A DNA stretch of 33,222 nt, taken from assembly GCA_016874675.1 (NCBI GenBank), contig VGTL01000028.1:1-33222 (forward strand), read 5' to 3'. Positions within the stretch are counted from its first letter, which is position 1. Each line of letters begins with the position of its first letter. Source of the stretch: Methanobacteriota archaeon. Its GTDB lineage: Archaea; Thermoplasmatota; DTKX01; VGTL01. Below the pieces are notes generated by a model. It made no database searches. It saw only the letters and a program-made list of their open reading frames with translations, and was not told the origin of the DNA. The position numbers were made by a program, and so were the translations under genes. Positions 1-33,222 of this stretch are shown here, one piece after another.

Positions 1-2778
1 AGCGACACCCACCCCGTTCCGGGAACCTGGTACAACCAGGGCCGGGTCCGGATGCTCTGGGACCTCCCGCCGTTCGACATCAGCGGCATCAAGGGGTACT
101 CGATAATGTGGGACACGAGCCCGACGACGGTCCCGCGAGAACACATCAACGTGACCGGTAACGTTTCCGAGTTCCTCGGCCCGAGGCTGCGCGACGGGTC
201 GGGCTGGTATTTCCACATCCGGGCGTGCGACAATTCCGGGAACTGGAACGACAGCGCGACCACGTTCGGGCCGGTGTGCATCGACACGAAGGCGCCGTCG
301 GGGCTGTCTTTGCGGATAGGGGACGGCTCCGGTTACGCGAACGACGCGCTCGTGGCCCTCTCGCCCGACGCCCCGGACCCGCAGCCCGGCTCCGGGACGG
401 GCTGGATGGCCTTCTCCAACGACGGGACCTTCTGGACTGACTGGCTGCCGTACGATTCCGCCCTCTCCGGGTGGAACCTGACGGACTACCGGTTCGGCGG
501 GGAGGACACGGACGGTCCGAAGACGGTCTATTTCAAGGCGCGTGACGTCGCCGGGAACGAGGTGACGGCGGAGAACAGGACGGCTGCGACCGTTTTCCTC
601 GACCGGAGGGCGCCGGACGGTCTCGGCATTGCCATCAATGATGGCTCGGAATGGACGAACAAGGCGGATGTCACATTATTGGTCCGGGCGAGCGACCCCG
701 AGCCGGCGAGCGGGCTCTGGCGGCTGGGCCTGAGCAACGACGGGGTCTCTTGGAGCGGCTGGACGGACTGGGCCGGCACCGCTGCCTGGTCGCTGGCGGA
801 AGGGGCCGGGGGCGCCGATTCCGACGGCCTCAAGACGGTCCATCTGCGGGTCATGGACCGCGCCGGGAACATCGCCGGGCCGGCGTCCGCCACGATCTTT
901 CTGGACCAGAGGCCGCCGGGCCAGCTCGGCCTGCTGATAAATGACGGGGCCGGATTCACGAACGTGAGCGAGGTCTCGCTGGCGGTCCATGTCGTGGACC
1001 CGGAGCCCGGCTCCGCCGGGCTCGAGATGGCGTTCTCGAACGACGGGTCGGAGTACGGCCCGTGGGAGCCGATGGCAGAGCTGAGGGGGAACTGGAGCCT
1101 CGTGACGGGCGCCGGCGGCAAGGATTCGGACGGGAACAAGACGGTCCGAATGATGACGCGCGACGCCGCCGGCAACCTCGGCGGTCCGGTGAACGCCTCT
1201 ATTTTCCTCGACCGCGTGCGGCCGGAGCGGCTTGCGATAGCCATCAACGGCGGCGCGAGATATGCCACGAGGCCCGATGTCGATCTGTCGCTTGCGGCGG
1301 AGGACGCGGAACCGTCCTCCGGGCTCCGGGCGATGCAGTTCAGCCGGGACGGCACCGTCTGGACGGAATGGGAGCAGTTCTCCCCGTGCCGGACCTATCA
1401 TCTCGACGGGCCGGACGGTCCGAGGACGCTCCATTTCAAGGTGAAGGACCGTGCCGGGAACATCGGGGGCGAGGGGACCGCGACAATAATACTGGATACG
1501 ACCGCTCCGTTCCTGACGGGCGTCGTTGCGTCCGGAATCACCCCGAGGTCGGCCGTGATTATGTGGCAGACGGACGAGGAGGCGGACGGCGCCGTCGATT
1601 ACGGCCCGACCGGCGCCTACGGGATGTCGGCGGCGAACGGCACTTTCGTGACCTCCCATTCGATACTGCTGACCGGTCTTCTGCCGGCCACGACCTACCA
1701 CTTCCGGGTGACGTCGAAGGACGCCGCGGGCAACGGCCCGGCGCGGTCCTCCGACATCACCTTCACGACCACATCGAAGGACGACTTCGTCCCGCCGATG
1801 ATATCGGATGTGAAGGTGCTGGGCCTCTCCGACCGGACGGCTGTCATCGGCTGGAGGACGAGCGAGCCGGCCGACGGCCTCGTTGAATGGGGGCCGACCG
1901 AAGCCTACGGGATGAGCGGCCGGGACAGCCGGCTCGTGCTGGTGCATAGCCTGACCTTGGGCGGCCTCTCCCCGTCGACGGCTTACCATTTCCGGGTCGC
2001 GTCGAGCGACTCGAGCGGCAACGGGCCCTCGTTCAGCCCCGACTTCACCTTCACGACGCTGGCCAGGCCGGACACCACGCCGCCCGTGATCTCGGACGTG
2101 ACCATTGTGGCGTTCTCCGACAGGCAGGCGGTCATATCCTGGCTCACGGACGAGGCGGCCGACACGGTCGTCGAGTACGGAACGGACCAAGGCTACGGGA
2201 AACGGGCCGTTGACCGGGCATTGGTCCTGTCGCACCAGCTGATTCTCTCGGGGCTTGCGCCCTCCACGACCTACCATTTCAGGGTTCATGCGACGGACGC
2301 CGCCGGCAACGGGCCTGTGACCAGCCCGGACTTCGCGTTCACGACCCTTGCCCTGCCGGACACGACCCCTCCGGTCATCTCGGGCGTGAAGGTGCTCGAT
2401 CTGACCGGGACGTCGGCGCTGGTGTGCTGGGACACCGACGAGGCCTCCACGGGCCTCCTGGAGCTCGGGACGGACGCAAGCTACGGGATATCCGTGGAGG
2501 ACGGGGCGTTCACGACCCGCCACGCGTTGCTGCTCCAGAACCTGACGCCCGGGCGGACCTACCACTTCCGGGTGTACTCGACCGACCTTTCGGGCAACCG
2601 GGCCGGCCCGACGGGCGACGCGACGTTCACCGCGCCCTCGGAGCCCCCGGCGCCCGGGGTCGCCCGTCTCGGTCCGCTAGACCTGGTGATGGCCGCGGCG
2701 CTGCTCGCGCTGGCGGCAGCGGGGGCGGCGCTCATATCGAGGTCGCGGGGGCGGGCCGGCCGGGGGCGGACGGACTGA
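1..2778 (+). CDS. Partial cell-surface protein, Ig-like and Fn3-like repeats, C-terminal membrane anchor (5' end outside window)
   Basis: The reading frame is open from base 1 to the TGA at 2776-2778, so the gene is cut by the left edge. The visible part has one Fn3/Ig-like domain, then four Ig-like repeats of about 105 residues, each with a SNDG...W..W core and a D.AGN stretch. Next come four repeats of about 95 residues with TTYHFRV and D.(S/A)GNGP motifs, resembling the Fn3-like N-terminal domain of purple acid phosphatases. It ends with one hydrophobic helix (LDLVMAAALLALAAAGAALI) and an Arg-rich tail. This is the pattern of an exported protein anchored by its C-terminus, with roles such as adhesion or S-layer association (inference). 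The sequence appears identical to 6007-8784 in the gene 3.2 kb downstream. Whether this copy has the same N-terminal head cannot be seen. An assembly duplicate is possible. Confidence 0.85.
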   Translation, partial: SDTHPVPGTWYNQGRVRMLWDLPPFDISGIKGYSIMWDTSPTTVPREHINVTGNVSEFLGPRLRDGSGWYFHIRACDNSGNWNDSATTFGPVCIDTKAPSGLSLRIGDGSGYANDALVALSPDAPDPQPGSGTGWMAFSNDGTFWTDWLPYDSALSGWNLTDYRFGGEDTDGPKTVYFKARDVAGNEVTAENRTAATVFLDRRAPDGLGIAINDGSEWTNKADVTLLVRASDPEPASGLWRLGLSNDGVSWSGWTDWAGTAAWSLAEGAGGADSDGLKTVHLRVMDRAGNIAGPASATIFLDQRPPGQLGLLINDGAGFTNVSEVSLAVHVVDPEPGSAGLEMAFSNDGSEYGPWEPMAELRGNWSLVTGAGGKDSDGNKTVRMMTRDAAGNLGGPVNASIFLDRVRPERLAIAINGGARYATRPDVDLSLAAEDAEPSSGLRAMQFSRDGTVWTEWEQFSPCRTYHLDGPDGPRTLHFKVKDRAGNIGGEGTATIILDTTAPFLTGVVASGITPRSAVIMWQTDEEADGAVDYGPTGAYGMSAANGTFVTSHSILLTGLLPATTYHFRVTSKDAAGNGPARSSDITFTTTSKDDFVPPMISDVKVLGLSDRTAVIGWRTSEPADGLVEWGPTEAYGMSGRDSRLVLVHSLTLGGLSPSTAYHFRVASSDSSGNGPSFSPDFTFTTLARPDTTPPVISDVTIVAFSDRQAVISWLTDEAADTVVEYGTDQGYGKRAVDRALVLSHQLILSGLAPSTTYHFRVHATDAAGNGPVTSPDFAFTTLALPDTTPPVISGVKVLDLTGTSALVCWDTDEASTGLLELGTDASYGISVEDGAFTTRHALLLQNLTPGRTYHFRVYSTDLSGNRAGPTGDATFTAPSEPPAPGVARLGPLDLVMAAALLALAAAGAALISRSRGRAGRGRTD
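1..2778 (+). repeat. 2778-bp direct repeat, copy 1 (partner 6007-8784)
   Basis: Every stretch compared between 1-2778 and 6007-8784 is identical at a constant offset of 6006. Identity ends exactly after the TGA stop: copy 1 continues cggaagggg, copy 2 continues tcggggcgg. The left boundary is unknown because copy 1 starts at the window edge. Confidence 0.95.
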
Positions 2779-3076
2779 CGGAAGGGGTCCCGGAGACCGC
2801 GGGCGTTATAAAGAACGCTCCCAATTCCGACCAGGCCTGAGCCACGCATATCAACATGACAGCATGTGAAGGCGAGGGGGTCTCCTTTGTCCGGGGACCG
2901 CAATCGAATATTTAAGCCGCCACGCTGGAGCAGAGAATGGCCGGGACCGAAAAAAAATAGGACTTATGCCATATTATCCTCGAACCTGACAAGTACTTTA
3001 ATGACCAGGTTCAGGTCATCCGCATGAAGGGTCAAGCAACACTAGAGCTACGTCCGGACACCGGGGCGAACCTGCA
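2779..3076. other. Intergenic region between surface gene copy 1 and the winged-helix gene
   Basis: No convincing gene is present. It holds a small inverted repeat, GCGTT/AACGC at 2803-2818 with a 6-base loop. There is an ATATTTAAG TATA-like stretch near 2908-2916, and a TACTTTA stretch at 2994-3000 that is placed to serve as the promoter of the 3077 gene. GAACCTG occurs at 2982-2988 and again near 3068-3074, each time followed by an ATGACC...GGTCAT inverted repeat. Confidence 0.5.
3001..3019. promoter_or_regulatory. Inverted repeat ATGACC-N7-GGTCAT, possible operator upstream of the winged-helix gene
   Basis: The perfect 6-bp inverted repeat ATGACC/GGTCAT lies directly downstream of a TATA-like TACTTTA (2994-3000). 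The same half-sites recur at 3077-3091. A palindrome at this place relative to a TATA box is typical of archaeal repressor sites; autoregulation by the 3077 protein is inference. Confidence 0.45.
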
Positions 3077-3091
3077 ATGACCCCAGGTCAT
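3077..3091. promoter_or_regulatory. Inverted repeat ATGACC-N3-GGTCAT overlapping the start codon
   Basis: This has the same half-sites as 3001-3019 but a 3-base spacer, and its first three bases are the ATG of the winged-helix gene. Both copies are preceded by GAACCTG. The repetition argues against chance, although the coding sequence also constrains these bases. Confidence 0.35.
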
Positions 3092-3358
3092 GGGAAGAAG
3101 AGGTGCCCGGACATCCGGGTCCAGATGAGGATACTGGCGGAGCTGCACGAGAGGGGGGAACAGTATCCGACCCGGCTGGCCGGTTCGAGCAACATCGGAT
3201 ACCGGATGCTGCAAACTTGCCTTGCCGGACTGAGAAAACACGGCCTGGTGTCCGTCACCGACACGGAGGACGGTCACTGCATGATCAGGATCACAAGCTC
3301 CAGAATCGACCGGCTTGAGAATTACCGGGCGAACTTCAGGCCGCTCATGGAGGAATGA
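3077..3358 (+). CDS. Small winged-helix DNA-binding protein (ArnR1-like/HTH_45 type)
   Basis: This 93-residue protein is basic at its start. Residues about 14-75 fit an archaeal winged helix: a helix RVQMRILAELHERG, a turn and recognition region containing SNIGYRMLQTCLAGLRKHGL, then a short wing (VSVTDTEDGHCMIRIT). This resembles the ArnR1-like family, in which the second helix pair ends in L...GL and is followed by a hairpin. The start is the ATG at 3077, with no strong ribosome binding site in front. The gene sits between two identical surface-protein modules, directly upstream of a 13-bp-period array (3388-3465) and of two ATGACC/GGTCAT palindromes. It is a good candidate for the local regulator that binds one of these, but that link is inference. 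No sensor domain is visible. Confidence 0.7.
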   Translation: MTPGHGKKRCPDIRVQMRILAELHERGEQYPTRLAGSSNIGYRMLQTCLAGLRKHGLVSVTDTEDGHCMIRITSSRIDRLENYRANFRPLMEE

Positions 3359-3387
3359 ACCCCATGGAAGGCCGGATTGATTATTGG

Positions 3388-3465
3388 TACTTATAATCGA
3401 TACTTATCAATGCTACTTTCCGGCGATACTTACTGGAAATACTTACCGCCGCTACTTATCATCGA
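3388..3465. repeat. Six tandem 13-bp units, TACTTA-N7, upstream of the 3532 promoter
   Basis: TACTTA occurs at 3388, 3401, 3427, 3440 and 3453, with TACTTT at 3414. Every step is exactly 13 bases. The 7-base spacers vary (taatcga, tcaatgc, ccggcga, ctggaaa, ccgccgc, tcatcga), so only the hexamer and the phase are conserved. The array ends about 10 bases before the TATA-like box of the secreted-protein gene. This looks like a multi-site protein-binding array rather than simple repeat slippage. Confidence 0.8.
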
Positions 3466-3473
3466 CGCGCTAG

Positions 3474-3480
3474 CTATATC
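3474..3480 (+). promoter_or_regulatory. TATA-like box for the 3532 gene
   Basis: CTATATC at 3474-3480 predicts transcription starting near 3502, leaving a leader of about 30 bases that includes GAAGGA at 3521-3526 as ribosome binding site for the ATG at 3532. The 13-bp array lies directly upstream, where activators or repressors of archaeal promoters bind. Confidence 0.5.
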
Positions 3481-3531
3481 ATCGGGCCCTTCCATGGAGA
3501 TGCGGGACCTACTCGTCCCAGAAGGAATCTG

Positions 3532-4593
3532 ATGACAGAGAACAGGTGGATGGGGGTTTTCGGGGCAATCCTCGTGGGGTTGATGATGTTGGTGACGGCG
3601 GTCCCGTCAAGGGCGTCGGGATCCGCAAACCACTGGTGGGAGCAGAACACCGGACAGGACTTCGCATCGGACACGATGACGAATGTCCATGTCTGCAACG
3701 TGAATCCCGGGTTTTATTTCGTTCATCTTGAAGACAATGAATCCGATACCTATGATTTTGATTACTCATCGAATCTTGTTCCTGTGCCGATATGGGATAA
3801 ATTAATTAACAATACAGATGTTGGCACATATTCTCAATCATTCACGCCCGACATCGATGGCGTTGTGGACAAGGTGGATTTAAGGGTATATCGTACTGGG
3901 CAGACGTATCCAAAAACACCGGCAAATGAAGACGCAAAACTTATCATCCGGATTACCGACGCTGTCCAGAGTGGCGACTACGAACCGATCATGGACAATG
4001 TAAAGGTGGAGTGGCAATTTGCGCCATCGCAGGTGCCCAAGGATTCAGGATCGTACACATACTTTCTGACTGAATACGACTCTTGCCATAGCACTCCCTT
4101 GGAGGCCGGTACAGTATATGACCTTGTTGTCACGAGCGATGCAGATGTTAATCAACAACAGGGTGTCGGTTATTTCTGGGATGCCGATTTCAATCAGGAC
4201 ACCTCGGGGACAGATGGATGCCGAAAAGCGTACGATAAGGACAACGAACCCGAATGGAAGGCGATATCATATGATTTCCCGTTCAAGGTATATGTCCATA
4301 ACTTTGTCCATTCCGGCGACATCGTCTCGGTGGTCCACGACTGCGGCTCCCAGGTAACCTTCTCCGAGACCTTCATCGAGCACCGGGAAGGTGGAACATT
4401 GGTATTCTCCGTCCGCACCGGACCCACTTCGTCGCCGGACGGGAGCTGGAGCGATTGGGTGGATCAAGGGTATGGCACCGAATCCCCCGGTCTAGACCCG
4501 AACCGGTATGTCCAATTCAGAATCGAGTTCGTCGCCGGAGATGACGATCTCACGACAGAAGGCGTCTGCGTGGTCCGAATCGGGTGGTTGTGA
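3532..4593 (+). CDS. Secreted protein of unknown function
   Basis: The 353-residue product starts with a signal peptide: charged MTENR, a hydrophobic stretch GVFGAILVGLMMLVTAV, then a likely cleavage near PSRASG. No C-terminal membrane helix is present, so it is probably released or held by partners. The middle (about 90-240) is a beta-rich region I do not recognise. The last 90 residues contain SWSDW and NRYVQFRIEF, a pattern seen in beta-sandwich modules of other secreted proteins; family assignment is tentative. Base composition is strikingly low in GC for this window: 3721-3780 has 20 G+C in 60. The gene is flanked by a terminator-like hairpin downstream and the TACTTA array upstream. Low GC and position between two identical modules suggest transfer or an exchangeable segment. 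Confidence 0.75.
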   Translation: MTENRWMGVFGAILVGLMMLVTAVPSRASGSANHWWEQNTGQDFASDTMTNVHVCNVNPGFYFVHLEDNESDTYDFDYSSNLVPVPIWDKLINNTDVGTYSQSFTPDIDGVVDKVDLRVYRTGQTYPKTPANEDAKLIIRITDAVQSGDYEPIMDNVKVEWQFAPSQVPKDSGSYTYFLTEYDSCHSTPLEAGTVYDLVVTSDADVNQQQGVGYFWDADFNQDTSGTDGCRKAYDKDNEPEWKAISYDFPFKVYVHNFVHSGDIVSVVHDCGSQVTFSETFIEHREGGTLVFSVRTGPTSSPDGSWSDWVDQGYGTESPGLDPNRYVQFRIEFVAGDDDLTTEGVCVVRIGWL

Positions 4594-4614
4594 CGCATAA
4601 AAGTTACCTCGGAT

Positions 4615-4638
4615 TTGCTCCATCTTTTTTCGGAGCAA
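4615..4638 (+). terminator. Hairpin/T-run terminator after the 3532 gene
   Basis: TTGCTCC and GGAGCAA form a perfect 7-bp stem around a loop that contains six T residues, 22 bases after the stop codon. T-runs are the main signal for archaeal transcription termination. Confidence 0.55.
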
Positions 4639-4747
4639 CCAGCTTTTTCTCAAGGGGGGCGTGTTCCGCTGGATATCTCCGGCATACAGCCATGGTGGCC
4701 TGTTCGGTGATTGGTCGACTTGGAGGTCCTATTTCGGTGCTTACGTA

Positions 4748-4759
4748 ATATATTTATAC
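4748..4759 (+). promoter_or_regulatory. TATA box for the FG-GAP surface protein
   Basis: ATATATTTATAC at about 4748-4759 is a strong archaeal TATA element. A start of transcription 24-27 bases downstream would fall at about 4777-4786, so the mRNA would be leaderless or nearly so, beginning at the ATG of 4777 or 4789. Confidence 0.65.
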
Positions 4760-4776
4760 TGTTAGATGAATGATGA

Positions 4777-7700
4777 ATGGGCCTCATTATGCAAGGCAAT
4801 CCACCGATTGGTAAATTCGGCCCGATTCTATTCAGCGGATTGCTTGTCATGAGTGGCTTCTTAGTTATCCCCCATCAGATCGGCGCCAAGCCAGAATCCT
4901 GTAACGCCAGATCGGAATCCTGGATCATCAACGACTTGGGACGCCCATCTCCCGACATCGATGTTTTCGGTCTGGACGACCTGACAATAGGAGATCTGGA
5001 TTGTGACGGAGCATCGGAGATATATGTAAATTGCTGGTCAGATGCTCATGTATATCGATTTGTCGGGCGTAATAATAGCTGGGAAGTGGACGATATCGGG
5101 CAATTGCTGGCTAATTCTCGAGGGAATTCTATTGAGATAGGAGATGCTGATGATGATGGACATGACGAACTGTATGCCGGCGCGTACCTTACAAGGGACA
5201 GAAATTACGTATATCAATTGAGGAAGGGCGAAGCTGGCTGGGAAAAAGACCTGCTCGGCGCCACCGGCAACACCAGCAACGGGTTCGCCATAGGCGACGG
5301 GAACAATGATGATCGGAACGAGCTCTTCAGTTCCGACGTGGATAGTCATGTTTACATGTTTTACAAAGCACAGACCTGGAACTGCCAGGATATCGGAAAC
5401 GGCTCGGAGTATCAAAGTGATTACGCTATAATGCGCGGTATTGCCGTCGGAGACGGTGACAACGACGGGAAGAACGAGGTCTACGCGTCCAATAATGATG
5501 GCCTCACCTTCCGGGCCGAATATTCCGGGTACGGATGGAACTGGACCGAGATTGACAGGCATAAAAACACAGCACTTAGCGATTTGGCATTGGGTGACGC
5601 GGACAACGATGGTAAGGACGAAATCTGCGTATTGACGGTCGGTACCAACACCTCGACGATCATGTATAAATGGAACTGTTCCTCAAAATCATGGGATGGC
5701 GTCGTGATGACCGGGTACCTCCCGAGTTATGGTACGGGTGACTATCGCATATGCATTGGCGATGGCAATGGAAATGGTTGGAACGAAGTGTACGTTTCAA
5801 TGGGTTATTATCTGTATCAGCTCTCATTCATCAACGGGACGTGGATGTCGACTTACCTCGGCTCGGCGAATGCCGGTATCATGTCTCTTGCGACAGGATC
5901 GGCGGCCGGCGACCCCAACCAGAAGGAGATATACGCTGCATGCAACGACGGCCACCTCTACCAGTTCTACAATGACGTCTTCCCGCCAGCCAATCCGTCC
6001 GTCCGGAGCGACACCCACCCCGTTCCGGGAACCTGGTACAACCAGGGCCGGGTCCGGATGCTCTGGGACCTCCCGCCGTTCGACATCAGCGGCATCAAGG
6101 GGTACTCGATAATGTGGGACACGAGCCCGACGACGGTCCCGCGAGAACACATCAACGTGACCGGTAACGTTTCCGAGTTCCTCGGCCCGAGGCTGCGCGA
6201 CGGGTCGGGCTGGTATTTCCACATCCGGGCGTGCGACAATTCCGGGAACTGGAACGACAGCGCGACCACGTTCGGGCCGGTGTGCATCGACACGAAGGCG
6301 CCGTCGGGGCTGTCTTTGCGGATAGGGGACGGCTCCGGTTACGCGAACGACGCGCTCGTGGCCCTCTCGCCCGACGCCCCGGACCCGCAGCCCGGCTCCG
6401 GGACGGGCTGGATGGCCTTCTCCAACGACGGGACCTTCTGGACTGACTGGCTGCCGTACGATTCCGCCCTCTCCGGGTGGAACCTGACGGACTACCGGTT
6501 CGGCGGGGAGGACACGGACGGTCCGAAGACGGTCTATTTCAAGGCGCGTGACGTCGCCGGGAACGAGGTGACGGCGGAGAACAGGACGGCTGCGACCGTT
6601 TTCCTCGACCGGAGGGCGCCGGACGGTCTCGGCATTGCCATCAATGATGGCTCGGAATGGACGAACAAGGCGGATGTCACATTATTGGTCCGGGCGAGCG
6701 ACCCCGAGCCGGCGAGCGGGCTCTGGCGGCTGGGCCTGAGCAACGACGGGGTCTCTTGGAGCGGCTGGACGGACTGGGCCGGCACCGCTGCCTGGTCGCT
6801 GGCGGAAGGGGCCGGGGGCGCCGATTCCGACGGCCTCAAGACGGTCCATCTGCGGGTCATGGACCGCGCCGGGAACATCGCCGGGCCGGCGTCCGCCACG
6901 ATCTTTCTGGACCAGAGGCCGCCGGGCCAGCTCGGCCTGCTGATAAATGACGGGGCCGGATTCACGAACGTGAGCGAGGTCTCGCTGGCGGTCCATGTCG
7001 TGGACCCGGAGCCCGGCTCCGCCGGGCTCGAGATGGCGTTCTCGAACGACGGGTCGGAGTACGGCCCGTGGGAGCCGATGGCAGAGCTGAGGGGGAACTG
7101 GAGCCTCGTGACGGGCGCCGGCGGCAAGGATTCGGACGGGAACAAGACGGTCCGAATGATGACGCGCGACGCCGCCGGCAACCTCGGCGGTCCGGTGAAC
7201 GCCTCTATTTTCCTCGACCGCGTGCGGCCGGAGCGGCTTGCGATAGCCATCAACGGCGGCGCGAGATATGCCACGAGGCCCGATGTCGATCTGTCGCTTG
7301 CGGCGGAGGACGCGGAACCGTCCTCCGGGCTCCGGGCGATGCAGTTCAGCCGGGACGGCACCGTCTGGACGGAATGGGAGCAGTTCTCCCCGTGCCGGAC
7401 CTATCATCTCGACGGGCCGGACGGTCCGAGGACGCTCCATTTCAAGGTGAAGGACCGTGCCGGGAACATCGGGGGCGAGGGGACCGCGACAATAATACTG
7501 GATACGACCGCTCCGTTCCTGACGGGCGTCGTTGCGTCCGGAATCACCCCGAGGTCGGCCGTGATTATGTGGCAGACGGACGAGGAGGCGGACGGCGCCG
7601 TCGATTACGGCCCGACCGGCGCCTACGGGATGTCGGCGGCGAACGGCACTTTCGTGACCTCCCATTCGATACTGCTGACCGGTCTTCTGCCGGCCACGAC

Positions 7701-8784
7701 CTACCACTTCCGGGTGACGTCGAAGGACGCCGCGGGCAACGGCCCGGCGCGGTCCTCCGACATCACCTTCACGACCACATCGAAGGACGACTTCGTCCCG
7801 CCGATGATATCGGATGTGAAGGTGCTGGGCCTCTCCGACCGGACGGCTGTCATCGGCTGGAGGACGAGCGAGCCGGCCGACGGCCTCGTTGAATGGGGGC
7901 CGACCGAAGCCTACGGGATGAGCGGCCGGGACAGCCGGCTCGTGCTGGTGCATAGCCTGACCTTGGGCGGCCTCTCCCCGTCGACGGCTTACCATTTCCG
8001 GGTCGCGTCGAGCGACTCGAGCGGCAACGGGCCCTCGTTCAGCCCCGACTTCACCTTCACGACGCTGGCCAGGCCGGACACCACGCCGCCCGTGATCTCG
8101 GACGTGACCATTGTGGCGTTCTCCGACAGGCAGGCGGTCATATCCTGGCTCACGGACGAGGCGGCCGACACGGTCGTCGAGTACGGAACGGACCAAGGCT
8201 ACGGGAAACGGGCCGTTGACCGGGCATTGGTCCTGTCGCACCAGCTGATTCTCTCGGGGCTTGCGCCCTCCACGACCTACCATTTCAGGGTTCATGCGAC
8301 GGACGCCGCCGGCAACGGGCCTGTGACCAGCCCGGACTTCGCGTTCACGACCCTTGCCCTGCCGGACACGACCCCTCCGGTCATCTCGGGCGTGAAGGTG
8401 CTCGATCTGACCGGGACGTCGGCGCTGGTGTGCTGGGACACCGACGAGGCCTCCACGGGCCTCCTGGAGCTCGGGACGGACGCAAGCTACGGGATATCCG
8501 TGGAGGACGGGGCGTTCACGACCCGCCACGCGTTGCTGCTCCAGAACCTGACGCCCGGGCGGACCTACCACTTCCGGGTGTACTCGACCGACCTTTCGGG
8601 CAACCGGGCCGGCCCGACGGGCGACGCGACGTTCACCGCGCCCTCGGAGCCCCCGGCGCCCGGGGTCGCCCGTCTCGGTCCGCTAGACCTGGTGATGGCC
8701 GCGGCGCTGCTCGCGCTGGCGGCAGCGGGGGCGGCGCTCATATCGAGGTCGCGGGGGCGGGCCGGCCGGGGGCGGACGGACTGA
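4777..8784 (+). CDS. FG-GAP/VCBS head, Ig-like and Fn3-like repeat surface protein with C-terminal membrane anchor
   Basis: The 1335-residue protein begins with a signal peptide (hydrophobic core ILFSGLLVMSGFLVI). Residues about 45-400 carry at least six FG-GAP/VCBS-type repeats, each with a D.D.DG..E(I/L/V)Y core such as GDADDDGHDELY, which would fold as a calcium-binding beta-propeller. Residue 411 onward is identical to the partial gene at 1-2778: one Fn3/Ig domain, four SNDG..W..W Ig repeats, four purple-acid-phosphatase-like Fn3 domains (about 910-1300), a membrane helix and an Arg-rich tail. The head has low GC (5101-5160: 25 of 60) while the repeated tail is very GC-rich, suggesting two different origins. 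ATG 4777 or 4789 could be the start; the TATA position allows either. A role in adhesion or binding to surfaces is inference. Confidence 0.88.
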   Translation: MGLIMQGNPPIGKFGPILFSGLLVMSGFLVIPHQIGAKPESCNARSESWIINDLGRPSPDIDVFGLDDLTIGDLDCDGASEIYVNCWSDAHVYRFVGRNNSWEVDDIGQLLANSRGNSIEIGDADDDGHDELYAGAYLTRDRNYVYQLRKGEAGWEKDLLGATGNTSNGFAIGDGNNDDRNELFSSDVDSHVYMFYKAQTWNCQDIGNGSEYQSDYAIMRGIAVGDGDNDGKNEVYASNNDGLTFRAEYSGYGWNWTEIDRHKNTALSDLALGDADNDGKDEICVLTVGTNTSTIMYKWNCSSKSWDGVVMTGYLPSYGTGDYRICIGDGNGNGWNEVYVSMGYYLYQLSFINGTWMSTYLGSANAGIMSLATGSAAGDPNQKEIYAACNDGHLYQFYNDVFPPANPSVRSDTHPVPGTWYNQGRVRMLWDLPPFDISGIKGYSIMWDTSPTTVPREHINVTGNVSEFLGPRLRDGSGWYFHIRACDNSGNWNDSATTFGPVCIDTKAPSGLSLRIGDGSGYANDALVALSPDAPDPQPGSGTGWMAFSNDGTFWTDWLPYDSALSGWNLTDYRFGGEDTDGPKTVYFKARDVAGNEVTAENRTAATVFLDRRAPDGLGIAINDGSEWTNKADVTLLVRASDPEPASGLWRLGLSNDGVSWSGWTDWAGTAAWSLAEGAGGADSDGLKTVHLRVMDRAGNIAGPASATIFLDQRPPGQLGLLINDGAGFTNVSEVSLAVHVVDPEPGSAGLEMAFSNDGSEYGPWEPMAELRGNWSLVTGAGGKDSDGNKTVRMMTRDAAGNLGGPVNASIFLDRVRPERLAIAINGGARYATRPDVDLSLAAEDAEPSSGLRAMQFSRDGTVWTEWEQFSPCRTYHLDGPDGPRTLHFKVKDRAGNIGGEGTATIILDTTAPFLTGVVASGITPRSAVIMWQTDEEADGAVDYGPTGAYGMSAANGTFVTSHSILLTGLLPATTYHFRVTSKDAAGNGPARSSDITFTTTSKDDFVPPMISDVKVLGLSDRTAVIGWRTSEPADGLVEWGPTEAYGMSGRDSRLVLVHSLTLGGLSPSTAYHFRVASSDSSGNGPSFSPDFTFTTLARPDTTPPVISDVTIVAFSDRQAVISWLTDEAADTVVEYGTDQGYGKRAVDRALVLSHQLILSGLAPSTTYHFRVHATDAAGNGPVTSPDFAFTTLALPDTTPPVISGVKVLDLTGTSALVCWDTDEASTGLLELGTDASYGISVEDGAFTTRHALLLQNLTPGRTYHFRVYSTDLSGNRAGPTGDATFTAPSEPPAPGVARLGPLDLVMAAALLALAAAGAALISRSRGRAGRGRTD
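6007..8784 (+). repeat. 2778-bp direct repeat, copy 2 (partner 1-2778)
   Basis: Identical to 1-2778 wherever compared, including silent positions. The right end is exactly the stop codon; the left end lies within a gene and may extend further left than the window lets one see. Direct orientation with a 6006-base offset means recombination between copies would remove the winged-helix gene, the secreted-protein gene and the FG-GAP head. Confidence 0.95.
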
Positions 8785-8852
8785 TCGGGGCGGTCCCGGA
8801 ATCCCGCTGCCCCCTCGCTGCCCGCTGCCCCTTTTCACAAAGCCCCCTGCAG

Positions 8853-13220: not shown

Positions 13221-13460
13221 AGGATGAGGCAGCAAGGCAGCAAGGCAGAAAGGCAGCAAGGGGGGCAGGAAGGCAGCAAGGGAGCAAGGCAGCAAGGGGG
13301 GCAGGAAGGCAGCAAGGCAGCAAGGGAAACGGGACGACCCGTCGTCCCCTTGCTGCCTTGCTGCCTTCCTGCCTTCCTGCCTTCCCTTGCTGCCTTGCTG
13401 CCTTCCTGCCTTGCTGCCCCGTGACTCGTTTTGTATGAACAACAACATCAATGAGGTAGG
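13221..13460. repeat. Large inverted repeat of GGCAGCAAGG units between redox genes
   Basis: From about 13225 to 13335 the top strand is made of GGCAGCAA, GGCAGGAA and GGGGGGCA units. From about 13345 to 13420 it is the complement (CCTTGCTGCC, CCTTCCTGCC). The centre GGGACGA-CCCG-TCGTCCC is a perfect hairpin tip flanked by matched arms. RNA across it could fold into a stem of about 90 bases per side. It lies between two same-strand genes of one locus, so it could insulate or stabilise mRNA segments. Open frames inside it are low-complexity artefacts. Confidence 0.85.
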
Positions 13461-15007: not shown

Positions 15008-18000
15008 TCAGTGGCGCCGCTGGGCCGGCTCCGTCTCCCCTGCTCCGTGCTCTCCCTCGGCGCTCTCCGAATCGATGCCCCTCTTCTCCGGGGCGCCCTT
15101 CGCCGGTATGTCGGGAAGGGAGCTTGCGACCGATGGCTCCCCGGGGACCGTCTCGGGTTCCGGCCGCCCCCTCCGTCGCAGGAAGACCATCGCGCCCATC
15201 GCGGCCGCGATGACGACCAGCCCCAGCACGACCGCCCAGGAGTGGTCCTGGTTGTCCACCCGGACCCTGAAGGACTCCTCGTTGACGTTGCCCAGGGAGT
15301 CGGCCGCCCGGATGTCCAGCCTGTGGACACCGTTGTCTTGGATTCCGGTGGCCCAGTCGAACTTGAAGATGCCACGGTCGCGGTCGGCCAGAAGCTCCCT
15401 CCACTCTCCGCCGTCCAGCCTGTACCGGTAGGTCCCTATCGCCGAGCGGTCCTCGATGCGGAACGAGATGTCCGAGCGGCCGCTGAGCTCCCGCCCCGTC
15501 AGCAGCGAGATGGACGGGCCGGAGTTGTCCACCATCAGGCGCCTCGTGGCAAGGGAGGTCCGGCCCGAAACGTCGGTCACGCCGACCTCGAGGTCGTTTT
15601 CGCCCTCGGGCAGGTTGCGGGTGTTGACGAGCGCCTCCCACTGCCCCGTGGAGCGGTCCAGCGCGGCCGGCCAGGTGCGGTTGGCCGCGCGCAGGGTGAC
15701 GGATTCCACCTCCAGGTCGTCGGAGGCGGAGAGCCGCACCACCACCTCGCCGGCGATGTGGACGTCGTCGGGGGGCGAGATCACCGCGGCCTTCGGGTCG
15801 CGGTTGTCCACCGTGAACGGCAGCTCCGAGACGGTCTCGTGGCCGATGCCGTCGACCGCCCTCACCCCGAGCAGGTGCGACCCCGCCGGGAGCAGGGTCG
15901 TGTCCAGCGGCTCCGAGGCGTTCGTCCAGTCCAGCCCGTCGACGCGGTACTCCGTCCTCTCAAGGAAAAGGTCCGAGGCCCAGGCCGCGACGTCCACCGT
16001 CCCGCACACGAACCCGTGCGCCCGCGGGGACTGCACCCGGAGCGACGGCGGCGTGTTGTCCACGCAGATCTTTATCTCGGCCGTGCGCTTCCGGCCCGCA
16101 AGGTCGGTGACCTCGGCGACCAGGGCGTGGGCCCCGTCCGCCAGCCGGCCGGTGTCCAATCCGGCCAGGTACAGGTCGCCGTCCCTCCCCAGGGCCGTGC
16201 CGGAGCCGTCGACGGTCAGCCGGACGCTCTGCACACCGGCCGCGTCGCTCGCTTCGATGGCGATCTCGATCGTCCCCTCCACGAATGTCGGCCGGACCGG
16301 CCCGGCGAACCGGACCCTTGGCTCGGAATTGTCCACAATGACACCGACCGATGATTCGGTCACGTGGCCGGCCGCATCGGTCGCCCGGACGACGACCGAG
16401 GCGGGACCGTCGGGCGAGCCGGTGGTGTTCCAGGGCTCGTCCAGCCCCCTCCAGGTCCGAAGGTCCGTGCTGTACAGGGCGGGCTCCAGGAAGAGGCCGG
16501 ATTCATCGGACACGAGGGCCTCTACGGAGACCGTCCCGGAGACCACCTCGCCCCCGCGCGGTGAAACCGCCAGTACCTGCGGGGCATGGTTGTCGACGTT
16601 GAACTCCACCGCCGGGGTGGAGACGGAGCGGCCGGCAAGGTCCGTAGCGGTGACGTTCGCGAAGTACCGTCCGTCGGGCAGCCCGGTCGTGTCCAGGCCA
16701 GAGGTGAAAAGGCCCGAGGCCGGGTCGAGCATCATGACCGTCCCTTCCACCCTCACGGGGGTGCCGTTGCCCGACCGGAACACCTCCAGACCCACCGAGC
16801 GAAGCCCGACCGCGTCGTCGGCGCGGGCCTTGACCGCGAGGTAGCCCTGGGCGAACTCGCCGCTGTACGGACGGACCAGCAGGACGGCCGGGTCGTTGTT
16901 GTCCACGAGGACGGACACCGTCGCGAGGGTCTCGTGGCCCGCGGCATCGAGCGCCCTTGCGGAGATCTCGTGCCTCCCGTCGGCGAGCCGGGTGGTGTCC
17001 AAAGGCTGGCCAATGTCGACCCAGCCCTGGCCGTCGACACGGTACTCGATGGAGCCGGGGTGAGCGTCGCGCGCTTCGACCAAGAGCTCGCAGGTCCCGC
17101 CCATGCACTCCCCCTCCATCGGAAAGAGTATGAGAAGCGAGGAGGCGGCGTTGTCCACCCGGAAGGTCGTTTCGGAGGAGACGGCGTGCCCCGCCAGATC
17201 GGTGGCCGTCAGGTTGATCGTCGCCTCCCCGTCGGCAAGAAGGCGCGTGTCGAGCTCGGCCTCGCAGCACCCGGTTGCGAGGTTGGGCACCAGCCTGCCC
17301 AGCGAGAGGGCGGCCCGCCCTTCCTGGGAGATCGTGGCGCAGACCAAAGACACCCCGGCGATGTCCGAGGCGGCGACCCTGATCGGGGTCCTGCCTTCCA
17401 CGAACCCGCCGGCGGGGGGCCACAGGAGCTCCGGCGCCGCCGGTGGCAGGTTGTCGACCACGACGGACCGGCGCTCCACCGTGAAGTGGCCGGCCTGGTC
17501 CAGCGCGCGCACCGCCACCTCGTGCGGGCCGTCCCTGAGCGTTCGGGTGTCGTGCCCTCCCGCGGGTGTGAAATCGTTCCAGGAGCCCCCGTCGATGCTG
17601 TAGGAGAACGAGCCCGGGAAGGCGTCCGCCATAGAGCCGTCCAGGGCCATGGTGCCAAAGACCACGTCGCCCGTCCGGGGCCGGTTCACCGTCAGGACGG
17701 GCGCGTTGTTGTCGATGTTGAACGCATGTTGCGAGGAACGCACGTTCCCGGCGGCGTCGGTCGCGGTGACCGTCACGGTCGCCGGGCCGTCCTTGCACCG
17801 GGTGGTGTCCAGCGCGTAGGCATAGCAGCCCCCCGAGGCGTCGAGGGGGATGTCGGGGGCGTCCAGCCAGGCGCCGCCCGGAAGGGCGAACCTCAGCGAA
17901 ACGCCCCTTATCCCGTACTGGTCGCGGGCGGTGGCCTTGATGGCGTGCACGCCGCAGATGAAGCCGCCCGCCGCGGGGTCCTGCAGGACCGGAGCGTCGG

Positions 18001-20716
18001 GCGCGGTGTTGTCCACCTTCACGCCCACCTCGGCCGTCCGGTATACCCGGGTGGTGGCGGGCGCGGCGGCGTCAGTCGCGCGGACCTCCAGCCGGTGGTC
18101 TCCGTCCGTCAGGCCGCCGGTGTTCCAGGCCCCGGCGTACGCGCCGGCCCCCGCGGCCGAGAGGGCGACCCAGGCGCCCGAGCCGTCGACCCGGTACTCC
18201 ACGGAGGAGATGCCCTCCGTGTCGGAGGCGAGCGCCCTTATGGTGAATGTCCCGCCGACGGTGGCGCCCTCGGCCGGCGACTGGACGGTCAGGACCGGGC
18301 AGGTGCGCACGTAGAACGAGACGGTGTCCGACGCGCTGTTGCCGTCCGGGTCGGAGACGACGGCCCTCAGGCGGTGCTCCCCGTCGCCCAGCGGGCGCGG
18401 GTCCAGCGCGGCGACGTAGCCCCGGTTGCCGCCGCCAAGGTCGGATTCAGCGTACACGGTGGTCAGGAGCCCGCCGTCGACGAAGACCTCCATCCGCTCG
18501 CCGCTCGAGTCGTTTGAGAAGTCCACCCTGAGCGTGATGTCGCCGGAGTTCGTGAGCGTCGCGCCCTGCCGGGGCTCCAGGACCTCGACCGAGGAGAGGC
18601 CCCAGTTGTCGATTGTGCAGGGCCGGGCGTCCGAGCCAGAGCCGGCGGAGTTGAACGCCGTCACCTTGAGCGTGTGGGGCCCGTCCCGGAACACCGTGGT
18701 GTCAAGGGCGCACTCCCAGCGCGAGGCGGCGGCGTTCCAGGCCATCATGCAGGCGAGACGGTCGTCGATATAGGCGCCCATCGAGGAGGCGCCGGCGGCA
18801 CCGGCGGCCACGGGGGCGTTGCCCGAGAGCGTGGCGCCGCTCGAGGGCGTGATGATCGCAACGGCCGAGGGAGGGGCCCCCCCGATGGCGCCGTTGGCCA
18901 CCGTGACGCTGATGGACCTCCTTAGTACTATGCCGTCGTTGTCGCGGGCGGCGACGGTGATGTCGTATGTCCCGTCCGGGAGCGAGGTGGTGTCCCAGGC
19001 CGTCTCCCAGTACAACGTGCCGGGGGCCTGGATGAGCGAAGTCCACGTGGTCTGCCCGGCTATCTGGAACCCGGCGAACACCACATCGTTCACGCCCGGG
19101 TCCTCGTCGTCGAGCGCCACCCGGAACAGGCAGTCGTTGCCCTTCACGGTGGAGCCGTCCACGGGGGAGACGAGCTTCATCCAGGGGGCCCCCATCTGGA
19201 GCAGGATCCACGCCGGGGCGACGAACACGCCGCCGGCGTTCTCGCGGGTCTTGACCTGGTCCAGGTTGACGGTCCGGTCCCACCAGAACTCGCGCTTGCC
19301 CGCCGGCCTGTCGGCGTCGTAGTACCGCAGGAGCATGCCCGGCAGGGCGGCCCCGCCGAGGGCCAGGTCGTAGTCGGCGTCCACGAGGCTCGGGGAGAGC
19401 GGGTTGTACGGGACCAGGAGCTCGAACTCGTAACGGTCGTTTTGGGTCCCGGGCTCGTTGATGTAGCTGGCGTCGCCCTTGCCGTCGACATCGTCAGTGC
19501 CCGAATCCGATTTCCAGGTGGCCGGGTCCGTGGTGGTGTCCACCCTGCCGTCCGTGTGGGTGCCGCCGGCTGATAATTCGCAGTACTGCTCGAAGTTGGG
19601 CATGGAGCCATCCAGCACGCCGTTGCGGGACCCGTCCCCCGAGCCCCCCTGCTCGAAGTAGATCCTCATCGCGTCGCCCGCGGCGGGCACGGCGTCGCGC
19701 ACGACCAGCCCGAAGTGGAGGTCGTAGCTCGAGGTGTCCTGCATGATGAAGACGGTGGCGGGTATGCTGTCCCCCTGGAAGTTGCAAAGGGATATGTCCC
19801 GGGAGTAGCAGTCCGCCCAGCTGAAGTCGCCGGTGATGTCGCCGTCGACGACGGGGGCCCCCGAGCGGGCGTAGGTGGCGTAGAAGGTCCGGTCCTTCGC
19901 CGGCATCCCCAGCTGGAGGTCGGCATAGGAGCTGACGTTGGTCGGGCTGCCCGAGGTCATGTCCCAGTAGTAGGACTTCCCCTCGTTGTGGAAGTAGACC
20001 TCGATGAACAGGCCGATCTCGTCGGTCCCGATGACATTGAGGTCCGACTCCGACACGGAGTCGTCCTTCGGGTCCAGGGGTATCCGCACCTCCCGGTTGT
20101 AGTACGACCCCTCCACGCTCACGGCGAAGTCGAAGTTGTCCAGCGAGCCCTTGTCGGTGCTGCCGTCCCCGCCGTCGTTGGTCCAGCCCCCGGCCGCGGC
20201 GTTGTAGTACCCGTCCCAGTACCTGCGGCTCAGCGAGGTCGAGCCCCCGAGCTTCACGAAGTTCTCGTTGCCGCCGGTCAGCAGGTCGTCGTGGGGGCCG
20301 TCGTACCCGGCGGTGGCCCCTTCGCCCTCGTCGAAGTAGAGCGTCACGTAGTCGTTCGCGGAGGAGCTCGAGCTCGGGTAGACCAATCCCGCGTAGAGGT
20401 AATCGTCGTCGTTCATCAGGAACAGGTAGCAGAACCTGGTCGAGGCGGGCGAGCCGAAGTCCGAAAGCGTGATGTTGCGGACGAAGGACCGGTCCCACTC
20501 GGTCGTGGAGGAGGTGCCCCGGGAGATCTGGCCGTCGAGGCTGATGTCGGTCCCGGCGTCGCCGTTGAAGTACGAGTACAGCTGCCGGGGGTTGGCCGGG
20601 TCGGCCAGCGGGTCGATGTGCGCCTGCGAGAACGGCAGGAGCAGAGTCAGGGCCGTGGTCAGGTAGGCGGCGGTCAGACACACCACTATCGTCAACGTCA
20701 TCTTCTTGGATGCCAT
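15008..20716 (-). CDS. Giant cell-surface protein: two CBM9/DOMON-like domains, about 14 Ig-like repeats, C-terminal membrane anchor
   Basis: The 1902-residue product starts with a signal peptide (LTIVVCLTAAYLTTALTLLL). Residues about 40-290 and 300-520 are two beta-sandwich domains similar to family-9 carbohydrate-binding modules, with DGQIS/DGDIT starts and repeated NDDDYLYAGLVY or YDLHFGLVVRDAV strands. From about 530 to 1820 there are about 14 Ig-like repeats of 80-95 residues (Big_7-like). Most share P..G..V.G, LDTT.L.DG.H, D.AG and a closing VDN. A membrane helix (about 1827-1846) and a charged tail of about 55 residues follow. The start ATG has GAGGTGA four to five bases upstream. It probably binds glycans or other surface partners (inference). 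It follows the 20790-21932 gene on the same strand by 73 bases with no obvious promoter, so it may be cotranscribed. Confidence 0.88.
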   Translation of the reverse strand: MASKKMTLTIVVCLTAAYLTTALTLLLPFSQAHIDPLADPANPRQLYSYFNGDAGTDISLDGQISRGTSSTTEWDRSFVRNITLSDFGSPASTRFCYLFLMNDDDYLYAGLVYPSSSSSANDYVTLYFDEGEGATAGYDGPHDDLLTGGNENFVKLGGSTSLSRRYWDGYYNAAAGGWTNDGGDGSTDKGSLDNFDFAVSVEGSYYNREVRIPLDPKDDSVSESDLNVIGTDEIGLFIEVYFHNEGKSYYWDMTSGSPTNVSSYADLQLGMPAKDRTFYATYARSGAPVVDGDITGDFSWADCYSRDISLCNFQGDSIPATVFIMQDTSSYDLHFGLVVRDAVPAAGDAMRIYFEQGGSGDGSRNGVLDGSMPNFEQYCELSAGGTHTDGRVDTTTDPATWKSDSGTDDVDGKGDASYINEPGTQNDRYEFELLVPYNPLSPSLVDADYDLALGGAALPGMLLRYYDADRPAGKREFWWDRTVNLDQVKTRENAGGVFVAPAWILLQMGAPWMKLVSPVDGSTVKGNDCLFRVALDDEDPGVNDVVFAGFQIAGQTTWTSLIQAPGTLYWETAWDTTSLPDGTYDITVAARDNDGIVLRRSISVTVANGAIGGAPPSAVAIITPSSGATLSGNAPVAAGAAGASSMGAYIDDRLACMMAWNAAASRWECALDTTVFRDGPHTLKVTAFNSAGSGSDARPCTIDNWGLSSVEVLEPRQGATLTNSGDITLRVDFSNDSSGERMEVFVDGGLLTTVYAESDLGGGNRGYVAALDPRPLGDGEHRLRAVVSDPDGNSASDTVSFYVRTCPVLTVQSPAEGATVGGTFTIRALASDTEGISSVEYRVDGSGAWVALSAAGAGAYAGAWNTGGLTDGDHRLEVRATDAAAPATTRVYRTAEVGVKVDNTAPDAPVLQDPAAGGFICGVHAIKATARDQYGIRGVSLRFALPGGAWLDAPDIPLDASGGCYAYALDTTRCKDGPATVTVTATDAAGNVRSSQHAFNIDNNAPVLTVNRPRTGDVVFGTMALDGSMADAFPGSFSYSIDGGSWNDFTPAGGHDTRTLRDGPHEVAVRALDQAGHFTVERRSVVVDNLPPAAPELLWPPAGGFVEGRTPIRVAASDIAGVSLVCATISQEGRAALSLGRLVPNLATGCCEAELDTRLLADGEATINLTATDLAGHAVSSETTFRVDNAASSLLILFPMEGECMGGTCELLVEARDAHPGSIEYRVDGQGWVDIGQPLDTTRLADGRHEISARALDAAGHETLATVSVLVDNNDPAVLLVRPYSGEFAQGYLAVKARADDAVGLRSVGLEVFRSGNGTPVRVEGTVMMLDPASGLFTSGLDTTGLPDGRYFANVTATDLAGRSVSTPAVEFNVDNHAPQVLAVSPRGGEVVSGTVSVEALVSDESGLFLEPALYSTDLRTWRGLDEPWNTTGSPDGPASVVVRATDAAGHVTESSVGVIVDNSEPRVRFAGPVRPTFVEGTIEIAIEASDAAGVQSVRLTVDGSGTALGRDGDLYLAGLDTGRLADGAHALVAEVTDLAGRKRTAEIKICVDNTPPSLRVQSPRAHGFVCGTVDVAAWASDLFLERTEYRVDGLDWTNASEPLDTTLLPAGSHLLGVRAVDGIGHETVSELPFTVDNRDPKAAVISPPDDVHIAGEVVVRLSASDDLEVESVTLRAANRTWPAALDRSTGQWEALVNTRNLPEGENDLEVGVTDVSGRTSLATRRLMVDNSGPSISLLTGRELSGRSDISFRIEDRSAIGTYRYRLDGGEWRELLADRDRGIFKFDWATGIQDNGVHRLDIRAADSLGNVNEESFRVRVDNQDHSWAVVLGLVVIAAAMGAMVFLRRRGRPEPETVPGEPSVASSLPDIPAKGAPEKRGIDSESAEGEHGAGETEPAQRRH

Positions 20717-32030: not shown

Positions 32031-32348
32031 GTGAGAATGAGGATGGGGCAGGAAGGCAGGAAGGCAGAAGGGCAGAAAGGGAGGCAGGAAGGCAGGAAGG
32101 CAGGAAGGCAGAAGGGCAGAAAGGGAGGCAGGAAGGCAGGAAGGCAGGAAGGCAGAAGGGCAGAAAGGGAGGCAGGAAGGCAGGAAGGCAGGAAGGCAGA
32201 AGGGCAGAAAGGGAGGCAGGAAGGCAGGAAGGCAGGAAGGCGGCAAGGGAACGGTCAGGACCGGTCTCCACTGCCCCCCTTCCTGCCTTCCCCCCTTTCT
32301 GCCCCCCCTGCTGCCTTCCTGCCTTTCTCCCTTGCCCCCTTTTATCGC
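32031..32348. repeat. Large inverted repeat with 44-bp tandem units between minus-strand genes
   Basis: From about 32050 to 32255 the top strand has four to five tandem 44-bp units built of AGGAAGGC, AGAAGGGC and AGAAAGGG octamers. After a short loop containing ACGGTCAGGACCGGT, bases 32275-32340 are pyrimidine-rich complement (CCTTCCTGCC, CCCCTTTCTGCC). The left flank ATGAGGATGGGGCAGGAAGG resembles the left flank of the 13225 element, ATGAAGGATGAGGCAGCAAGG broken at one base. There is no gene in this stretch. Confidence 0.85.
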
Positions 32349-32989: not shown

Positions 32990-33222
32990 AACTCAAAGGC
33001 GCAAGGCGCAAGGCGCGGGGCGCAAGGGACGAAGGCGAAGGGTCAAGGGTCAAGGGTCGAAGGCAGCAAGGGAAGGCAGCAAGGGAGCAAGGCAGGAAGG
33101 CAGCAAGGGAAGGCAGCAAGGGAGCAAGGCAGGAAGGCAGCAAGGGAAGGCAGCAAGGGAAGGCAGCAAGGGAGCAAGGCAGGAAGGCAGCAAGGGAAGG
33201 CAGCAAGGGAAGGCAGCAAGGG
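32990..33222. repeat. Purine-rich heptad and 13-bp tandem repeat array reaching the window edge
   Basis: It starts with 7-bp units (GGCGCAA, GGCGCAA, GGCGCGG, GGCGCAA, then GGGTCAA, GGGTCAA, GGGTCGA) and passes into about 12 units of GGAAGGCAGCAAG, some spaced by GAGCAAGGCA. It is the same sequence family as the arm at 13225. The array is cut by the right edge, so a complementary arm may lie outside. There is no gene in this stretch. Confidence 0.85.

Follow-up and report, generated by a model that had tools for sequence, protein, structure and literature searches.

Two putative surface-protein genes of a Thermoplasmatota archaeon carry different heads on a stalk and membrane anchor that are identical as assembled, and the explanation we consider probable is an old tandem duplication in which the stalk-and-anchor part was later homogenised by gene conversion or by an equivalent unequal exchange. 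Our verdict is one of ordinary concerted evolution together with a repeat-broken contig. The window (i.e., the whole stretch of DNA analysed, 33,222 nucleotides) is contig C28, bases 1–33222, and searches were made against the draft assembly to which it belongs (3.36 Mb in 189 contigs). The RNA polymerase B subunit of this assembly has its closest counterpart (81%) in a MAG labelled Euryarchaeota (CSMAG_707), with records labelled Thermoplasmatota, Thermoplasmata, Euryarchaeota and Methanomassiliicoccaceae coming next, and we accordingly take the organism for an uncultured member of the Thermoplasmatota.

The repeat and the edge of the contig

Direct comparison of window 1–2778 with 6007–8784 gave 0/2778 mismatches, and mismatch between the copies starts with the first base after the TGA, past which no exact identity remains. 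The earlier note's description of a perfect repeat whose copies diverge right behind the stop codon is thus borne out in both respects, and a run of 2778 identical bases rules out chance as its source. The repeat does not comprise a whole gene; it consists of the final 925 codons and the stop of a 1335-codon gene (4777–8784).

When searched against the assembly, the repeat returned its two copies and one more perfect match, namely the last 127 bases of a 5033-bp contig (C149); neither the repeat nor the 353-aa gene described below has further copies in the assembly. The end of C149 exactly equals window 1–127 and supplies the missing front of gene 1. Contig ends that share one fixed overlap length (maxK) at graph branches are left by metaSPAdes and MEGAHIT (PMC10914622), and the ends of C28 and C149 share exactly that many bases (127). 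The value k = 127 for this assembly is supported by a second contig-start match of exactly 127 bases (C94:1–127); related matches at C94 reach 129 bases or more. Because the overlap at the contig end equals the fixed k-mer length, C149 leads into the repeat. The suspicion that the earlier note cast on the window edge was therefore justified, as C28 breaks at a k = 127 graph branch and C149 continues gene 1. The left limit of the repeat is likewise a real branch point: C149 and the window disagree at the base that precedes 6007, and again at many positions upstream of it.

That the repeat is written twice in C28 suggests that the assembler walked round a loop in the graph. Since both copies were probably written from one graph segment, the 100% stalk identity, which holds as assembled, is probably an upper estimate and is best read as “very high.” The contigs imply four joins (from C149 into the repeat, from 6006 into the repeat, and from the repeat to 2779 and to 8785), and these fit two tandem units, more than two units, or one chromosomal gene plus a 6,006-bp circle. 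We prefer two tandem units, because neither circle-type genes nor a plasmid relative were found. On the evidence of the 127-base overlap and the shared gene order, the sequence would run from C149 through the repeat, 2779–6006 and the repeat again to 8785 onward.

Table 1. Features of the window that bear on the repeat and on the two units (positions in the window).
Feature	Position	Strand	Description
Repeat copy 1	1..2778	+	Final 925 codons and stop of surface-protein gene 1; first 410-odd codons on C149 (3668-5033)
Overlap with C149 end	1..127		127 bases; mark of a k=127 assembly-graph branch (PMC10914622)
Spacer between units	2779..3498		No similarity at the DNA level found with C149 before position 2389, nor with what follows copy 2 apart from ~16 bp behind the stop
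Winged-helix gene, unit 2	3077..3358	+	HTH_45/MarR-like, below curated cut-off
353-aa gene, unit 2	3532..4593	+	No known family; 84% identical to C149 2422-3483
Surface-protein gene 2	4777..8784	+	1335 aa; hydrophobic N-terminus, FG-GAP head, Ig-like and Fn3-type stalk, C-terminal membrane segment, basic tail
Diverged head part, gene 2	4777..6006	+	76% protein identity to C149 gene 1 (search over residues 1-452); dS 0.76, dN 0.16
Repeat copy 2	6007..8784	+	Identical to 1-2778; stalk and anchor, from residue 411
Weak residual similarity after stop	8785..8800		11/16 bases match 2779-2794

Gene order and divergence of the two units

Two homologous units share the same gene order, one in the 3′ part of C149 (winged-helix gene 2064–2303, 353-aa gene 2422–3483, and the first 455 codons of the surface-protein gene, 3668–5032) and one in the window (3077–8784; Table 1), with their adjacency resting on the 127-base overlap. 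The DNA alignment of the units starts at window 3499 (C149 2389) and runs downstream, at ~80–83% identity upstream of the repeat. Measured on the repeat, the units recur every 6006 bp; measured between the start codons, the distance is 6015 bp, because the heads differ in length by 9 bp. The winged-helix protein of unit 2 is 33% identical to the HTH_45 protein that occupies the same place in unit 1. The 353-aa gene occurs in only two copies in the assembly, each adjoining one of these surface-protein genes, which fits the prediction of a tandem duplication; a search of the single relative from the same family did not recover it. Upstream of the tandem pair, C149 (372–1898) carries a gene for a Ras/Roc-type small GTPase and a gene with two PAS domains.

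Both proteins of the pair appear to be surface-exposed. The stalk holds Ig-like domains and four Fn3-type domains spaced 96 residues, and the identical part begins at residue 411, shortly past the FG-GAP head. With its hydrophobic N-terminus, FG-GAP, Fn3-type repeats, and membrane segment with basic tail, the protein resembles archaeal surface proteins that bear an Ig/Fn3 stalk and a C-terminal anchor, although it differs from them in matching none of the NCBIfam models for C-terminal sorting signals. No named relatives of the protein were confirmed among GTDB genomes, no solved structure matched the head by sequence, and a head structure predicted without an alignment was unusable (mean pLDDT 34). 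Elsewhere in the window (15008–20716, minus strand), an open reading frame of 1902 aa, rich in bacterial Ig-like domains (Big_7, Big_13), likely encodes another surface protein.

The heads carry 129 synonymous differences over 269 sites (pS 0.48, dS 0.76, dN 0.16) and the pair of 353-aa genes has a dS of 0.56 and a dN of 0.10, whereas the repeat (925 codons) has 0 changes over 720.7 synonymous sites, which bounds its silent divergence at ~0.4%. It follows that the duplication is old and the stalk identity recent. A recent simple tandem duplication is rejected, as the whole unit is not near-identical (84% for the 353-aa genes and 76% for the heads, in protein). Protein-level selection is rejected as the cause of the identity, given 0 changes at ~721 synonymous sites beside a head with a dS of 0.76; because silent sites escape selection on amino acids, the identity calls for a process of copying. 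As assembled, the tract has sharp bounds and, even at silent sites, a similarity far above that of its homologous flank—the pattern by which conversion is recognised—and gene conversion is accordingly the process to which we attribute it by inference. In the 353-aa gene part of the unit alignment, exact runs of 101 and 76 bases exceed the longest one (68 bases) that arose when alignments of the same divergence were simulated 1000 times; this excess suggests that smaller conversion tracts had formed earlier.

We propose the following course of events. An old tandem duplication in a Thermoplasmatota archaeon would have produced neighbouring units, each made up of a 353-aa gene and a head-stalk-anchor gene and preceded by a winged-helix gene, and these units would then have diverged to ~80% in DNA. 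Homologous recombination, either as conversion or as an unequal exchange of equivalent effect, would later have overwritten the stalk-and-anchor half of one neighbour with that of the other. Its tract would have started a little beyond the head and stopped at the stop codon, roughly where homology ceases, so that the two genes would have come to share one stalk under distinct heads. In a short-read assembly this stretch would form one graph segment, so that C28 starts at it and C149 ends in it. The earlier note had offered very recent duplication, ongoing gene conversion, or an assembly artefact as sources of exact identity; this was the right set, from which we retain conversion and, for the contig edge, an effect of assembly, while a very recent simple duplication falls away because the rest of the unit is diverged. 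We count against our explanation that no second genome of the species was found that would show concerted evolution over time.

The same course of events bears on where the identity ends. A boundary at the end of the reading frame had been taken to suggest selection or a mechanism acting on the coding module, a suggestion that we do not uphold: the homologous unit ends at about this point, and the identity extends to silent sites. Where units are duplicated in tandem, the next unit follows the first copy and unrelated sequence follows the last. As the downstream neighbours of the two copies differ, homology between them must end at the end of the unit, and any recombination or conversion tract must stop at about the TGA because homology ends there. 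A mechanism that senses the reading frame is not needed, since the homology of the units ends at the stop codon or ~16 bp past it. Among random pairs of ungapped segments, 0.1% do as well as the 11/16 match after the stop, a comparison by local alignment with shuffled sequences gives p = 0.03, and an older homology may run those ~16 bp further. From the coincidence of boundary and reading frame we learn no more than that the end of the unit lies a short way behind the gene.

Base composition also changes along the units. The heads, the 353-aa genes, and the winged-helix regions have a GC content of ~50% and the stalk one of 68%; the heads of paralogues have 64–69% GC with a GC3 above 0.9, compared with a GC3 of 0.60 in the heads of the tandem pair. 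The shift in GC lies ~100–150 bp before the start of the repeat in both copies and, being at about the same place in each, probably predates the duplication rather than being an effect of homogenisation. The AT-rich stretch (~50% GC, in a window of 66% GC overall) spans window 3001–5860 and C149 2001–4750, taking in the head together with the winged-helix and 353-aa genes, and is possibly of foreign origin. As a separate observation on composition, arrays of 8-base purine-rich units (of the GGCAGCAAGG and GGCAGGAAGG type) occur at 13228–13418, 32047–32342, and 33059–33222. Two of these three arrays have their reverse complement within ~30 bp downstream and are predicted to form hairpins of great length (folding as RNA at −164 and −147 kcal/mol); arrays of this sort, frequently arranged as inverted pairs, are found on >30 contigs of the assembly.

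Other readings of the identical stalks

The best-placed alternative, though an unlikely one, is over-collapse by the assembler, by which stalks differing by up to a few percent would have been merged into one consensus segment and written twice. Collapse of bulges into a consensus is documented for metaSPAdes (PMC8021871), copies written from one segment are identical by construction, and C28 begins exactly at a graph branch. Sequences as divergent as the heads (~20% in DNA), however, would not collapse, and the heads were indeed kept apart. At a minimum, then, the stalks must resemble each other far more closely than the remainder of the unit does. Were over-collapse true, the biology would be the same partial homogenisation, but older and less complete.

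We give distinctly less credence to an arrangement in which one chromosomal gene (C149 front, repeat, 8785 onward) is accompanied by a 6,006-bp circle (2779–8784), or in which more than two units exist and the walk round the loop chose two, although the same four graph joins would permit either. Apart from a head, only the winged-helix gene and the 353-aa gene, which belongs to no known family, lie between the repeats. No replication or integration gene family was found among the genes of the unit, and no plasmid records encode the 353-aa protein, on which grounds a mobile element or plasmid is rejected. Both units, moreover, combine the 353-aa gene with a surface gene, which is the arrangement that a plain tandem duplication gives.

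Most improbable is a head-switching system in which the identical stalks serve as a recombination platform and cells lose, amplify, or exchange 6-kb units with different heads: recombination between the repeats would indeed remove unit 2, so that a single gene bearing head 1 remained, and the shift from differing to identical sequence falls near the head/stalk border (residue 411), but neither a recombinase nor silent head cassettes were seen, each gene has its own start, and other paralogues are not homogenised.

Concerted evolution and the paralogue family

Old duplication followed by conversion has counterparts elsewhere. Concerted evolution of duplicated genes by gene conversion is known in prokaryotes (Wang and Chen, 2018; PMC6053082), and there, as here, neighbouring or duplicated genes are more alike than their age allows, silent sites included. 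The present case, by contrast, concerns one genome of a species, and only the 3′ two thirds of the gene are homogenised while the 5′ part stays diverged. In archaea, homologous recombination equalises gene copies in Haloferax and Methanococcus (reviewed in PMC12186497), similarly copying one version over another; in those organisms it does so between chromosome copies, whereas here it would act between two tandem paralogues of one chromosome. The difference from known concerted evolution is only one of detail, i.e., a homogenised stalk with distinct heads.

Homogenisation is not a habit of the whole family. The other adjacent pair (C50 4863–15164; ~1770 and 1625 aa) is 49% identical, has no long shared stretch, and shows no homogenisation, so conversion is not general among these genes. 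The paralogues C50a, C50b, C71, and C19 end in a cysteine-rich domain, unlike the tandem pair with its membrane anchor.

For the reading of draft genomes, a perfect long repeat at a contig edge should be checked first against the other contig ends of the same assembly. The case shows that no coding-level mechanism is needed for identity to break off at a stop codon. For the archaeon itself, it is a modest case, in which homogenisation is limited to the stalk of a surface protein and the heads stay different.
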